Part shown: positions 18,138 through 23,484 of the stretch, piece after piece | Position numbering within the stretch: the stretch's first letter is position 1 | Layout: each line of letters begins with the position of its first letter | Source of the DNA: Candidatus Nitrosopumilus sp. | GTDB lineage: Archaea > Thermoproteota > Nitrososphaeria > Nitrososphaerales > Nitrosopumilaceae | Reading direction: 5' to 3' | Length of the DNA: 64,000 nucleotides | Assembly: GCF_028278985.1 (NCBI RefSeq) | Contig: NZ_JANQTA010000013.1 | Coordinates: 62,001-126,000, forward strand | The notes under the pieces: generated by a model | Told to the model about the DNA's origin: nothing | Seen by the model: the letters and a program-made list of their open reading frames with translations, nothing else | The model's database searches: none | Position numbers and translations under genes: made by a program

Positions 18138-18299
18138 ATGTCTGTTGAAGTTACATGTGGTAAATGTGGCGAAAAGATCACAAATATGAAAATGTTAAAG
18201 TCTCTCAAAGATGTAATGAATCCTTACAGTGGAAAATGCCCATCTTGTGGACAAAAACTTTCTACATCTGAATTTTCTCTTGATGTTCAAGAAAAATGA
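18138..18299 (+). CDS. Small zinc-ribbon protein (53 aa)
   Basis: A short frame starts at ATG 18138 (in-frame alternative ATG at 18126) and codes for 53 residues. Two CxxC pairs are visible, CGKCGEK near the N-terminus and CPSCGQK near residue 34, separated by a basic KMLKSLKDVMNPYSGK linker. That spacing fits a single zinc ribbon. It sits between the DUF35 gene and the GATC-rich promoter of the NrdD-like regulator. No family name can be given. Confidence 0.7.
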   Translation: MSVEVTCGKCGEKITNMKMLKSLKDVMNPYSGKCPSCGQKLSTSEFSLDVQEK

Positions 18300-18436
18300 T
18301 CCTAAAATGATCACAATATGATCGTTTTTTCCATTTTTGAAAATTTGTTGATCATATTTTGATCATTTTTGATCTTATCAAATGAAAATTTTGTTTAATC
18401 AACAATCTCAATGATCAAAAATTAAGACAAATGATC
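18298..18436. promoter_or_regulatory. Cluster of TGATC(A) motifs upstream of NrdD-like regulator
   Basis: TGATCA occurs at 18308-18313, 18349-18354, 18360-18365 and 18412-18417. TGATCC is at 18298, TGATCT at 18370 and 18432, and ATGATCGTT at 18318-18326. Eight GATC sites in 140 bp suggest an operator array. ATGATCGTT recurs upstream of the ribonucleotide reductase gene. Confidence 0.6.
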
Positions 18437-18467
18437 TAGTCATAAGTCTTATTTACCTCCTTTTTTT

Positions 18468-18479
18468 AGAATCAGTTAT
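18468..18479 (+). promoter_or_regulatory. Promoter start element shared with reductase gene
   Basis: AGAATCAGTTAT covers the expected transcription start and overlaps the ATG of the regulator. The same 12 bases occur at 20784-20795. In both places a TATA-like TTATTTA or ATTTAAG lies about 17 bases upstream. Confidence 0.5.
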
Positions 18480-20628
18480 GAAAATGAGCGATGAAGAGTT
18501 AGAAATGGATATGGATGATGATCTAGATGAAGATTTTGATGATGACGATGTAGATGATTCACCAAAAAGAAGTGGAATCTTACAATCTACATCAAAACGT
18601 GTAAGAATGATCTTCTCTGTTATGGCCAGTCCAAACAGAATCGATATCCTCAGAATTCTAAATTCCAAAGGACCTTTGACTTATTCTGAACTAAAATCAT
18701 TAGCCGGATTCAAATCCAAAAAAGAAAGTGGAAAATTTGCATACCACTTGAGAAAATTATTAAGACAATCACTTGTTGCATTAAACAAATCTGAAAGACG
18801 TTACACAATTACAAATCTTGGAAAACTTGTTTTAAGTTTAGCAAGACAAATTGAAGAACGCTCAATCATTGAAAGTGGAAAGATGTATGTCAGAACATCA
18901 CATGAATCCATTGAAGAATTTAATTCTCATAAAATTATACAATCTCTAGTTCGTGAAGGAAGTCTTCCACTTGAACTAGCACAAAAAATTACTGAAGAAG
19001 TTGAAAATAGAATTTACAAATATCAAACAACCTATCTTACAGGCTCACTTATCCGTGAAATGGTCAATTCTGTTCTTCTTGAGCATGGTCATGAGGAATA
19101 CAGGAACAAGCTTGCACGCCTGGGCTTGCCTGTATTTGATGTCCAAGAAATGATTTCAAACTTGGATAATGTAGATAATGGTGCTGAAGGTCTTTTGTTC
19201 AATACTGGACAAAGAGTCTTTGCAGAACATCTACTAACTAACGTTCTTCCAAAAGATGTTGCAGACTCTCATCTTTCTGGTGACTTACACATAACAAATC
19301 CCGGAATCTGGTCAATGATACCTGATACAATTTTTGTAAATGTTAAAGAACTCTTAGATGATGGAATTGATCTTGGAGGAAAATATCTTGATGTTTCAAG
19401 ACTTCCTGCATCAAAACAACTAGATGAAATTACAAGTTCATTATCAATTGTAATTTCATTATTATCAAAAGAAGCTTCTCAAGAAATAGTTCTTGATGGA
19501 TTACCACAACTCTTTAGTAAACATTCTAAATCATTAGGAGAACTAGAACAAAAACTTACAAATGCATTTGCAACGGCATCTACTACTTCAAAATATAATA
19601 AAACAAGTACAAATATTTCAATTCGATTACAATTAGGAACTGATGCAAAAATTGTTACTTCTATAATTAATGCATACAAAAATTACACAAAGCTAACACC
19701 ACTACCAAAAATTGGCTTGATCATTGATAGTGATAAAGGAAAGATTACTGATGTTTCAGAAGCTGCTGCTGAGATTATTTCTATTGGAGGAAAAGTAATG
19801 TTTGCAAAAGGACAAACATCTAGCTATGGTGTTACCAATGGTTCAACTAAAAGTTCTGGCCCATTAGCAATTACACTACAATCTGTATCAATTAACTTAC
19901 CACGACTTGCATTTGAATCAAACAAAGATGAAACCTACTTTAGAGCAAGACTTGCTTTGTTGATGAAGCCAGCATTGTCTTCTATGGCATTAAGAAAGAA
20001 AGACATTTCTGATCTTACAAGACGAGGTCTCAACCCAATCCTTGCAAAAAATACCCAATACATGCAAAAAAGCTCAGTTTCACTTGTGATTAATTTGGTA
20101 GGACTAAAAGAGGCAGTCTTTAACATTCTTGGATTCCAAGACAATAAAGAAGGCAAAGAAATCCTCCATAAGGTAATTGAGACTGCAGTTGATGTTGCTG
20201 CCAAAAAGGGAAAGGAATTAGGTGATTCTGTGGCTATTTGCATGACTGAAACTGAGGGTTCTGAGCGATTTGCAACCCTTGATGGCGAAAAATATGGCAA
20301 AAATTCTGCTCTAAATTCAATGGAAGGAGATTCCTATTCTCAAGGTGTAGTGATTAGTGCATCAGAAGTAGGTGATTATACTGCAAAAAGTGAGCCTATC
20401 AGTGAATGCAATAAAATCTCAAAACTACTTAATGGTGGTTTACTAGTAAATCTGGATATTGACAAGGGTGCCAAAGTTGCCGATATCAAAAAATCTATTG
20501 AAAAGACTGCAGAACTAACTTCATCCTTTAGACCAGTTAAAAAAATTGCAATTTGTGGTGAGTGTGGTTTCAAAGATGAACCAATTGATGATAAGTGTCC
20601 AAAGTGCAAGTCACCATACATTATCTGA
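18478..20628 (+). CDS. HTH - ATP-cone - NrdD-like fusion, candidate reductase regulator
   Basis: This 716-residue protein has four parts. They are an Asp/Glu-rich tail (5-27), an ArsR-like winged helix (about 40-125: SPNRIDILRILNSKGPLTYS), an ATP-cone (about 136-228: YVRTSHESIEEFNSHKII), and an NrdD-like barrel (about 230-680: HLSGDLHITNPG, SINLPRLAFE). A zinc motif CGECG...CPKC ends it four residues before the stop. Catalytic NrdD needs active-site cysteines and a C-terminal glycyl-radical loop. Here no cysteine occurs before about residue 600 and the loop is absent, so it cannot be a working reductase. ATP-cones bind ATP or dATP; with the HTH this suggests a nucleotide-sensing repressor, analogous in logic to NrdR. 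The reductase gene follows 204 bp downstream. Confidence 0.85.
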   Translation: MKMSDEELEMDMDDDLDEDFDDDDVDDSPKRSGILQSTSKRVRMIFSVMASPNRIDILRILNSKGPLTYSELKSLAGFKSKKESGKFAYHLRKLLRQSLVALNKSERRYTITNLGKLVLSLARQIEERSIIESGKMYVRTSHESIEEFNSHKIIQSLVREGSLPLELAQKITEEVENRIYKYQTTYLTGSLIREMVNSVLLEHGHEEYRNKLARLGLPVFDVQEMISNLDNVDNGAEGLLFNTGQRVFAEHLLTNVLPKDVADSHLSGDLHITNPGIWSMIPDTIFVNVKELLDDGIDLGGKYLDVSRLPASKQLDEITSSLSIVISLLSKEASQEIVLDGLPQLFSKHSKSLGELEQKLTNAFATASTTSKYNKTSTNISIRLQLGTDAKIVTSIINAYKNYTKLTPLPKIGLIIDSDKGKITDVSEAAAEIISIGGKVMFAKGQTSSYGVTNGSTKSSGPLAITLQSVSINLPRLAFESNKDETYFRARLALLMKPALSSMALRKKDISDLTRRGLNPILAKNTQYMQKSSVSLVINLVGLKEAVFNILGFQDNKEGKEILHKVIETAVDVAAKKGKELGDSVAICMTETEGSERFATLDGEKYGKNSALNSMEGDSYSQGVVISASEVGDYTAKSEPISECNKISKLLNGGLLVNLDIDKGAKVADIKKSIEKTAELTSSFRPVKKIAICGECGFKDEPIDDKCPKCKSPYII

Positions 20629-20650: not shown

Positions 20651-20703
20651 AACGATCATTTTTCAAAACTTTTTGATCCATTTCAGATGTGACGATGATC
20701 GTT
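20651..20703. promoter_or_regulatory. ATGATCGTT sites upstream of ribonucleotide reductase
   Basis: AACGATCAT at 20651-20659 is the reverse complement of ATGATCGTT at 20695-20703; a TGATCC lies between them. The same nonamer occurs at 18318-18326 before the HTH/ATP-cone gene. This suggests a shared operator for both promoters. Confidence 0.55.
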
Positions 20704-20832: not shown

Positions 20833-23484
20833 TTGGATAATTCACAAATAGAAAATACGATCAATGAGATCCGTAAGCGCAGTGGCGCAGTAACGGCTTT
20901 CAATCAAGATAAAATTTCAAATGCCATCTATAGGGCATTGGCAGCCACCTCTAAAGCCGACCGTGGCCTAGCCGATCAACTCGCAGGTAAAGTAGTTGAC
21001 AAACTTGTAGAACAAGGATTTACTAGTTCTAGAACACCTACAGTTGAAGATATTCAAGACATTGTAGAGTCAACGCTAATCGATAGTGGAAATAGCGATA
21101 TCGCAAAAGCATACATCGTCTACAGACATGAGAGAAGAAAATTAAGAGACGAGAAGATGAAGGTCTTGAATCTCAAGTCATTAGATCCAGTATCTAAGAA
21201 ATTTGATTTAAATTGCCTTAGAGTGCTTGCATCAAGATATCTTTTCAGAAATGGAAAAAATGAGATTATTGAATCACCAACTCAAATGTTTGAAAGAGTT
21301 GCAATTCTAGTAGGCGTAGGTGATTTAATGTATGATTCACAAATCTTTGACAAGTCAGCCAGCTCAAAACAAGATATTGATGAAGCAAAATCTTATCTTG
21401 AAAAACTTGATGCCTTTGATTACAAATTCAAAATTGGAGAATATTATCTCAACAAATGGCATTTCAGATCTTTAATCAACCACTATGTCACTCTAGCAAA
21501 CAAAGGTCAAATGAAAATCAGTTTCAAAGATCTTCTAACATTGCTTGCAGCAAAGAAACTCGATGACTATTCTGATAAAATTTCAGAGTACTTTGAGCTA
21601 ATGGTTTCTCAAGACTTCCTACCAAACTCTCCAACAATGATGAATGCAGGTGGAAGACTAGGACAACTATCTGCATGCTTTGTTCTTGGAATGGAAGATG
21701 GAATGGAACAAATCATGAAATCTACCTCAGATGCAGCATTAATCTTTAAGTCTGGTGGTGGTGTTGGAATCAACTATTCTGATCTTCGTGAAGAAGGCGA
21801 TATTGTTGCATCAACTTCAGGTGTAGCATCTGGTCCAGTTTCATTCATGAACATCATCAACACAGTCACTGAAGTCGTAAAACAAGGTGGAAAACGACGT
21901 GGTGCAAACATGGGAATCATTGAAGCATGGCATCCTGATGTTGAGAAATTCATCACAAACAAAACTGAACCAGGAGTCTTAGAGAACTTTAACGTAAGTG
22001 TTGGAATCTGGGAAGACTTTTGGCACTCACTAGTTAATACATCTGATGGAAATTATATTCTACGTAGTCCACGTGACAAAAAACCTGTCAAAGAAATTAA
22101 TGCACATCAATTAATTGATTTGATTGCATTATCCGCTTGGAAGAGTGCAGAGCCTGGTTTGATCTTCTTTGATCAAATTAACAAATACAATGTATTTGCA
22201 AAAGCCAGACAAGCACCACTAAGAGCTACAAACCCATGTGGTGAACAAAGTCTCTATCCATACGAGTCATGTAATCTTGGTTCAATTAACTTGGTAAATC
22301 TTGTAAAAAGACAAGCTGATGGAACTTATGAATTTGATTGGCAAAGATATGAAGAGACAATCAGAAAAACAACTCGTTTCTTAGATAACATCATTGATGT
22401 AAATCACTATCCTGTTGATGAAATCAATGTTGCATCAAAAGAATCAAGAAGAATTGGATTAGGTGTAATGGGAGTAGCCGATCTATTATACAAACTTAGA
22501 ATTCCATACAATTCCAAAGAAGGTTATGAACTACAATCAAAACTATCTGAAGCCCTAACTTACTATTCAATGGAAGAAAGTGTTGCTTTGGCAAAGTCTA
22601 GAGGTGAATTCCCACTTTGCTCAAAGACAGAATATCCTGAAGGAAAGATTCCTGTAGCTGGATATTATGAGAAACCTAAAGAGGCTCACTCCTATGAATG
22701 GGATGCACTAATTGAAAAAATCAAGCAATATGGAATTAGAAATGTACTGACAACAACTGTTGCTCCAACTGGAACACTATCTATGATTGCAGATTGCTCA
22801 AACGGAATGGAACCTGCATTTGCTCTAGTCTTTGAGAAGAGGGTTACTGTTGGTAGATTCTTTTACACAAACAAGATTGTTGAAGAAGCACTCAAAGAAG
22901 CAGGTCTTTACAATGATGAAATTCTTGCAAAGATTGCAGACAACTATGGTTCACTGAAAGGAATAGAAGAAATTCCACAATGGATGCAAGATGTCTTTGT
23001 TACAGCAATGGACATACACTGGGCTGATCATTTGATGGCTCAAGGCGTATGGCAAGATTGGATTGGAAATGCAATTGCAAAAACAATCAACATGCCATAT
23101 GATGTAACAGCTGAAGATGTAAAATCTGCATATCTTCTTGCACATGAACTTGGTCTAAAAGGAATCACAGTTTATCGTGATGGCTCTAGACACAAACAGG
23201 TTCTTCATATGACAAGTGAAAATGCACAAAAGACTTTTGATGTAACACCAACCGAACACCTTACGAAATTTGTTACTGAAACAATAACAAATCCATACAT
23301 CAAATCTCAAGTCAATGCTGCACTTGCACTCAAAGTTCATGATGAAGAGATTGTAGCTGAACCTCAGAAACAAGAAGAAGTTTCAGAGGATCGTCTATGT
23401 CCAACATGTAAAAACAGCCTCGTATTTGTTGAAGGTTGTAGTATCTGCATTGAATGTGGATACAGCGGTTGTACTTCTGGATAG
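20833..23484 (+). CDS. nrdJ: Adenosylcobalamin-dependent (class II) ribonucleotide reductase
   Basis: The 883-residue enzyme starts at a TTG preceded by GGGGAG. An N-terminal ATP-cone (about 12-100: KRSGAVTAFNQDKISNAIY) provides allosteric control. The catalytic barrel contains NSPTMMNAGGRLGQLSACF with one redox Cys, FKSGGGVGIN, and NPCGEQSLYPYESCNLGSIN with the thiyl-radical Cys and N-C-E triad. TTTVAPTGTLSMIA follows. The C-terminal CPTCKNSL...CSICIECGYSGC zinc/redox tail is typical of B12-dependent reductases. It makes deoxyribonucleotides in the cytoplasm without an oxygen-derived tyrosyl radical. The preceding pseudo-NrdD regulator probably controls it. No small subunit gene is adjacent, as expected for class II. 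Confidence 0.95.
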   Translation: MDNSQIENTINEIRKRSGAVTAFNQDKISNAIYRALAATSKADRGLADQLAGKVVDKLVEQGFTSSRTPTVEDIQDIVESTLIDSGNSDIAKAYIVYRHERRKLRDEKMKVLNLKSLDPVSKKFDLNCLRVLASRYLFRNGKNEIIESPTQMFERVAILVGVGDLMYDSQIFDKSASSKQDIDEAKSYLEKLDAFDYKFKIGEYYLNKWHFRSLINHYVTLANKGQMKISFKDLLTLLAAKKLDDYSDKISEYFELMVSQDFLPNSPTMMNAGGRLGQLSACFVLGMEDGMEQIMKSTSDAALIFKSGGGVGINYSDLREEGDIVASTSGVASGPVSFMNIINTVTEVVKQGGKRRGANMGIIEAWHPDVEKFITNKTEPGVLENFNVSVGIWEDFWHSLVNTSDGNYILRSPRDKKPVKEINAHQLIDLIALSAWKSAEPGLIFFDQINKYNVFAKARQAPLRATNPCGEQSLYPYESCNLGSINLVNLVKRQADGTYEFDWQRYEETIRKTTRFLDNIIDVNHYPVDEINVASKESRRIGLGVMGVADLLYKLRIPYNSKEGYELQSKLSEALTYYSMEESVALAKSRGEFPLCSKTEYPEGKIPVAGYYEKPKEAHSYEWDALIEKIKQYGIRNVLTTTVAPTGTLSMIADCSNGMEPAFALVFEKRVTVGRFFYTNKIVEEALKEAGLYNDEILAKIADNYGSLKGIEEIPQWMQDVFVTAMDIHWADHLMAQGVWQDWIGNAIAKTINMPYDVTAEDVKSAYLLAHELGLKGITVYRDGSRHKQVLHMTSENAQKTFDVTPTEHLTKFVTETITNPYIKSQVNAALALKVHDEEIVAEPQKQEEVSEDRLCPTCKNSLVFVEGCSICIECGYSGCTSG

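Follow-up and report, generated by a model that had tools for sequence, protein, structure and literature searches.

Winged helix, ATP-cone and class III reductase-like barrel in one protein: a candidate nucleotide-sensing regulator of ribonucleotide reductase genes in Nitrosopumilus

Why a protein resembling the class III ribonucleotide reductase NrdD, and preceded by a DNA-binding domain, should have its gene immediately before that of a class II reductase is the question raised by a 64,000 nt stretch of a Candidatus Nitrosopumilus sp. genome (family Nitrosopumilaceae, order Nitrososphaerales), referred to here as the window. An earlier note on this DNA had proposed that the protein is not a working reductase and that it instead represses the neighbouring gene, nrdJ, in response to nucleotides. 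The domain comparisons, gene neighbourhoods and promoter sequences described below make it likely that the protein is a DNA-binding regulator of reductase gene transcription that senses nucleotides and probably acts as a repressor; it would have arisen when a class III reductase lost its activity and acquired a winged helix at the N-terminus.

Domain architecture and the NrdD-like barrel

The gene lies on the forward strand at 18478-20628 and encodes a protein of 716 amino acids, comprised of four domains. An acidic N-terminal tail precedes a winged helix-turn-helix at residues 41-119 (18598-18834), within which the Pfam families DUF7347 (PF24038) and HTH_20 match above their cut-offs (residues 45-119, E = 3e-10). 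This is followed by an ATP-cone at residues 136-208 (18883-19101), where PF03477 scores 35.7 bits against a cut-off of 25.8, revealing the ATP-cone expected of the bacterial repressor NrdR. An NrdD-like barrel spans approximately residues 218-690 (19129-20547), and the C-terminus is formed by a zinc ribbon, CGEC-(10)-CPKC, at residues 693-710 (20554-20607). Pfam NRDD (PF13597) matches residues 460-712, and more weakly an N-terminal part, with 93.4 bits (cut-off 26.2). The open reading frame and these matches agree with the coordinates and layout originally described, except that six residues, rather than four, follow the last cysteine of the zinc motif. Cysteines are found at residues 588, 644, 693, 696, 707 and 710; the first is therefore slightly earlier than the bound of about residue 600 given in the earlier note, and none occupies a catalytic position.

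Conservation is unevenly distributed between these domains. Within the order, mean pairwise identity is 73% for the winged helix, which is almost unchanging and has a nearly invariant recognition helix, and 66% for the cone, far above the 32-34% of the barrel. A partial check of the nucleotide-binding residues of the cone found R139 and F148 to be invariant and K152 to be mostly K or R, with valine in place of the first lysine of the usual motif. Some family members are short forms of 535-602 residues that have lost the zinc ribbon, and one relative is an intact 694 amino acid open reading frame (L115, 3870-5954). The same DUF7347 winged helix also occurs, with neither cone nor NrdD domain, in a 469 amino acid protein (L242, genome G078) of family f19, in which the fusion protein is absent.

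When a profile of 24 relatives of the fusion protein was compared by hhalign with seven genuine archaeal NrdD proteins, the two proved collinear between residue 136 and the zinc ribbon (probability 100, E = 1.6e-57), with the alignment breaking off at the start of the glycyl-radical loop. Genuine archaeal NrdD columns contain the signatures HIHD, RPFC, QCCR, ENAN, TPAES and RITGYY. At these columns the window's protein has HITN for HIHD, a deletion of the ENAN flap and no TPAES, and column alignment places no cysteine at either catalytic position (T4 C79 and C290, corresponding to RPFC and the finger loop). The glycyl-radical loop that follows the zinc ribbon in NrdD is likewise absent, as the chain stops six residues beyond the ribbon. 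These losses are shared by the family: the RPFC and finger-loop cysteines, HIHD, the ENAN flap, TPAES and RITGY are gone from about 29 regulators, and none of 29 aligned relatives has the loop or a cysteine at either catalytic position, stray finger-loop cysteines in L208 and L210 being the only exceptions. A few members from elsewhere in the phylum have a longer tail, two of them with a glycine at the radical position (L216 and L228), and none has the required cysteines. In Prevotella copri NrdD, substrate is bound by the HxHD motif and NxN flap, and the radical resides on Gly711 (PMC11226230).

The predicted structure has a mean pLDDT of 62; much of the barrel reaches 70-93, and confidence is low, mostly below 50 to 70, for the winged helix and over much of the cone. 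Searching the PDB with this model through Foldseek returned class III NrdD proteins as all of the best 36 matches (best E = 1.1e-19). A PDB search with the single sequence gave only weak NrdD matches (E = 0.4), the profile search being the informative one. Alignment at the cysteine and glycine positions and structure prediction had both been put forward as checks, and the alignment found no intact glycyl-radical site or catalytic cysteine. These observations strongly support the view that the protein is a dead NrdD, which keeps the barrel fold and lacks all catalytic and substrate-binding signatures.

It is accordingly very improbable that the protein is a working, or merely unusual, ribonucleotide reductase. 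The NrdD fold, the zinc ribbon and a Pfam NRDD score beyond its cut-off would be in keeping with such an enzyme; opposing it are the lack of any relative with the catalytic cysteine pair, a working glycyl-radical loop, HxHD, NxN or TPAES, and the class II reductase already encoded next door. Profile alignment and motif columns together rule out an active enzyme, as the earlier note had anticipated from the missing cysteines and loop. Its further expectation, that databases may well label the protein an anaerobic reductase, depends on the resource: the NCBIfam NrdD model TIGR02487 rejects it (83 bits against a cut-off of 326), whereas Pfam NRDD accepts it, such that annotation from Pfam alone would read anaerobic reductase.

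Distribution and linkage to reductase genes

Relatives of the fusion protein were found in 58 of 61 near genomes and in 278 of 300 genomes of the class (207 of the 213 good ones), and homologues extend over much of the phylum; the family is old. Across the phylum, 152 of 200 genomes gave matches, a tally that takes in some genuine NrdD and weak matches, and several well-sequenced families of the phylum yielded none. An unrooted tree separates the regulators from genuine NrdD by a single split with 99% support. Members from elsewhere in the phylum score up to 316 bits against the NrdD model, above the window's protein (93 bits), as progressive decay would predict. Two Nitrosopumilus-type contigs carrying the gene (L034 and L087) come from assemblies whose labels read Phycisphaerales and Proteobacteria; these bins are probably mislabelled or contaminated.

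The adjacent gene (20833-23484, forward strand, TTG start) is, as first suggested, a class II, adenosylcobalamin-dependent reductase, the domain matches identifying NrdJ with an ATP-cone of its own and C-terminal CxxC pairs; it is the presumed target. This cone and that of the fusion protein are the only two in the genome. Among Nitrosopumilaceae loci with enough flanking sequence, nrdJ starts less than 600 nt downstream of the fusion gene in all 73, and 24 of 25 loci from divergent members of the order have a same-strand class II reductase as their next gene, the exception (L243) having no nrdJ within 2 kb. Identity between the linked enzymes and the NrdJ of the window ranges from 80% to approximately 30%, implying that the position outlives exchange of the enzyme. 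Three loci (L119, L120 and L123) have linked NrdJ proteins of more than 1000 amino acids from lineages other than the window's, from which it follows that class II reductases have been swapped several times in the order.

Comparison of neighbours in relatives thus found the linkage to be maintained throughout the order but patchy beyond it, with a reductase beside the gene in 11 of 50 loci and none nearby in the other 39. A convergent arrangement of the two genes is seen in a different order of the class (L230, L231 and L240). In contigs tentatively classed as Bathyarchaeia-like, the gene is directly upstream of a genuine nrdD with its glycyl-radical motif in five loci (L205, L206, L207, L210 and L214), of an nrdD with a missing end or interrupted by the contig boundary in two (L208 and L247), and of nrdJ in one (L197). 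This recurrence beside both classes of reductase gene is the strongest sign of function.

Genomes with nrdJ and no fusion gene comprise family f19 and genome G042. Among good genomes of the order that seem to lack the fusion gene, G206 and G207 also lack nrdJ, and in G267 a contig edge lies about 90 nt upstream of nrdJ, leaving only G042 as an apparently real loss. The nrdJ at L301 is the sole one found in G042, and that at L300 is a second copy in G056; neither is beside a fusion gene. Within the order, genome G050 encodes a genuine NrdD with the motif RVVGY (L136) as well as a fusion gene beside nrdJ. Of 81 genomes of the class, not one contained a protein reaching the cut-off of the NrdR model TIGR00244, as against 9 of 14 control genomes.

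It is common for pseudoenzymes to act on active paralogues, and the protein might similarly exert its control on the reductase protein, its dead NrdD fold pairing with the active enzyme so as to inhibit or stabilize it, with the winged helix serving dimerization or a secondary role. The genuine nrdD genes adjoining the fusion gene in several genomes would suit such an arrangement, as would a barrel that is full-length rather than trimmed. However, the partners are mostly class II NrdJ proteins, distant from the NrdD fold, the most conserved domain is the winged helix rather than the barrel, and phased boxes occur in both promoters, all of which make this explanation rather improbable. By comparison, regulation of the adjacent reductase gene, the function originally proposed, is well supported by the linkage to nrdJ in the order and to genuine nrdD elsewhere, by the lack of NrdR in the class, and by a winged helix and cone far more conserved than the barrel.

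Promoters and candidate operators

Upstream of the fusion gene is an array of eight TGATC boxes with a phase of approximately 10.5 bp (18298-18436), a candidate autoregulatory operator. The GATC sequences, at 18298, 18309, 18320, 18350, 18361, 18371, 18413 and 18433, form the densest such cluster in the window, and their spacings are all close to multiples of 10.5 bp, a phasing equalled in none of 20,000 random placements. They are followed on the forward strand by the conserved sequence AAGTCTTATTTAC (18444-18456), about 25 nt before the ATG, which is probably a TATA-like core promoter. Conserved just upstream of the gene in Nitrosopumilaceae, and ending beside the array, is a 53 amino acid open reading frame with two zinc-ribbon-like CxxC pairs (18138-18299). 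On the nrdJ side, the candidate operator CGATCATTTTTCAAAACTTTTTGATCCATTTCAGATGTGACGATGATC (20653-20700) begins 25 nt past the stop codon of the fusion gene; its three GATC sequences, 21 and 22 bp apart, span 20654-20697 and fall within a block conserved in 32 dereplicated relatives. The shared DNA motifs on which the earlier note had drawn are therefore real, and helically phased at both promoters.

A survey of about 100 promoters per region, whose sequences are related and hence non-independent, found the commonest GATC spacings to be 10, 20, 11, 41, 21 and 42 upstream of the fusion gene and 21, 40, 19 and 39 upstream of nrdJ, where 0.5-0.7 would be expected per spacing. The two promoter regions are different sequences with the same spacing habit; likewise, L194, which differs in the rest of its sequence, has nine GATC sequences, most of them spaced by 10-11 bp. 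Six groups sampled across four of the order's other families had neither a GATC array nor a common motif, and an order-wide generic operator was dropped, as the arrays are confined to Nitrosopumilaceae. In one genus (g43, family f8), an inverted repeat, TTGACC-TTTT-GGTCAA, is found upstream of the fusion gene (L272-L276 and L298), is largely conserved, and might be an operator there.

Although the recognition helix is almost invariant, the arrays are missing from the other families, and so may belong to another factor. One account built on this makes the protein a transcription factor that senses nucleotides and governs a wide regulon, connected to replication or growth state, in which the reductase is one target among others and the GATC arrays are another protein's sites. 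Both the failure of the arrays to be conserved alongside the helix and the 39 loci outside the order without a nearby reductase are consistent with it. Nevertheless, it appears unlikely, given near-perfect linkage in the order despite swapped NrdJ lineages, and given that phased GATC triples are very rare, with a pattern search finding them at four places in the genome and the dense array mainly at the fusion gene's own promoter. For a regulator of the adjacent reductase gene, the arrays constitute a good candidate operator.

Proposed mechanism and relation to known systems

From this combination of domains and sites we infer that the protein senses ATP and dATP and represses nrdJ. ATP or dATP would bind the cone, the barrel perhaps contributing to the sensing of dNTPs, and nucleotide binding would shift the contacts within a dimer or oligomer. 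The winged helices could then line up on one side of the DNA helix at the presumed sites in the nrdJ promoter and their own, such that high dATP would most likely lower the expression of both genes. The barrel may have been retained whole to serve in dimerization, to sense nucleotides alongside the cone, or to make contact with the reductase. A broader proposal, which we advance only tentatively, is that this is an ancient archaeal regulator family using a whole dead reductase as its sensor, with ATP and dATP read by the cone and further nucleotides by the barrel, and governing reductase genes of classes II and III over much of the Thermoproteota in place of NrdR.

No published description of a fusion of winged helix, cone and dead NrdD, and no account of reductase gene control in archaea without NrdR, was found in the open-access literature. 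Nucleotide-sensing control of reductase genes as such is already known; the architecture is what is new. The candidate, present in nearly all ammonia-oxidizing archaea and spread widely through the phylum, has a defined neighbouring gene and two defined promoters, and if the proposal is true it would clearly exemplify the conversion of an enzyme into a sensor for its own pathway. It also corrects annotations that would credit aerobic ammonia oxidizers with an oxygen-sensitive reductase.

The N-terminal domain resembles DUF7347 and ArsR-like winged helix domains in its matches to PF24038 and HTH_20, but differs from stand-alone ArsR-type proteins in its low HTH_metalloreg score (24 bits, cut-off 55) and in being fused to a cone and barrel. 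The remainder is collinear with genuine archaeal NrdD (PF13597, TIGR02487) in its cone, barrel fold and C-terminal zinc ribbon, while lacking the catalytic and substrate motifs and carrying the added winged helix. The closest functional parallel is NrdR, the bacterial repressor of reductase genes, which similarly couples an ATP-cone to a DNA-binding domain, and is encoded near reductase genes, with those genes and its own as presumed targets. NrdR binds paired sites in helical register (PMC9110341; PMC12051234), its boxes being about three helix turns apart (PMC9110341), and the candidate boxes here are likewise in helical phase. By contrast, NrdR is a protein of 140-220 residues in which a DNA-binding N-terminal zinc ribbon with an RRRR motif precedes the cone, whereas the fusion protein has a winged helix ahead of the cone, an entire dead reductase behind it and its zinc ribbon at the C-terminus, and has no match to TIGR00244 in the NCBIfam search. 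Rather than a member of the NrdR family, it would in effect be a counterpart of separate origin.
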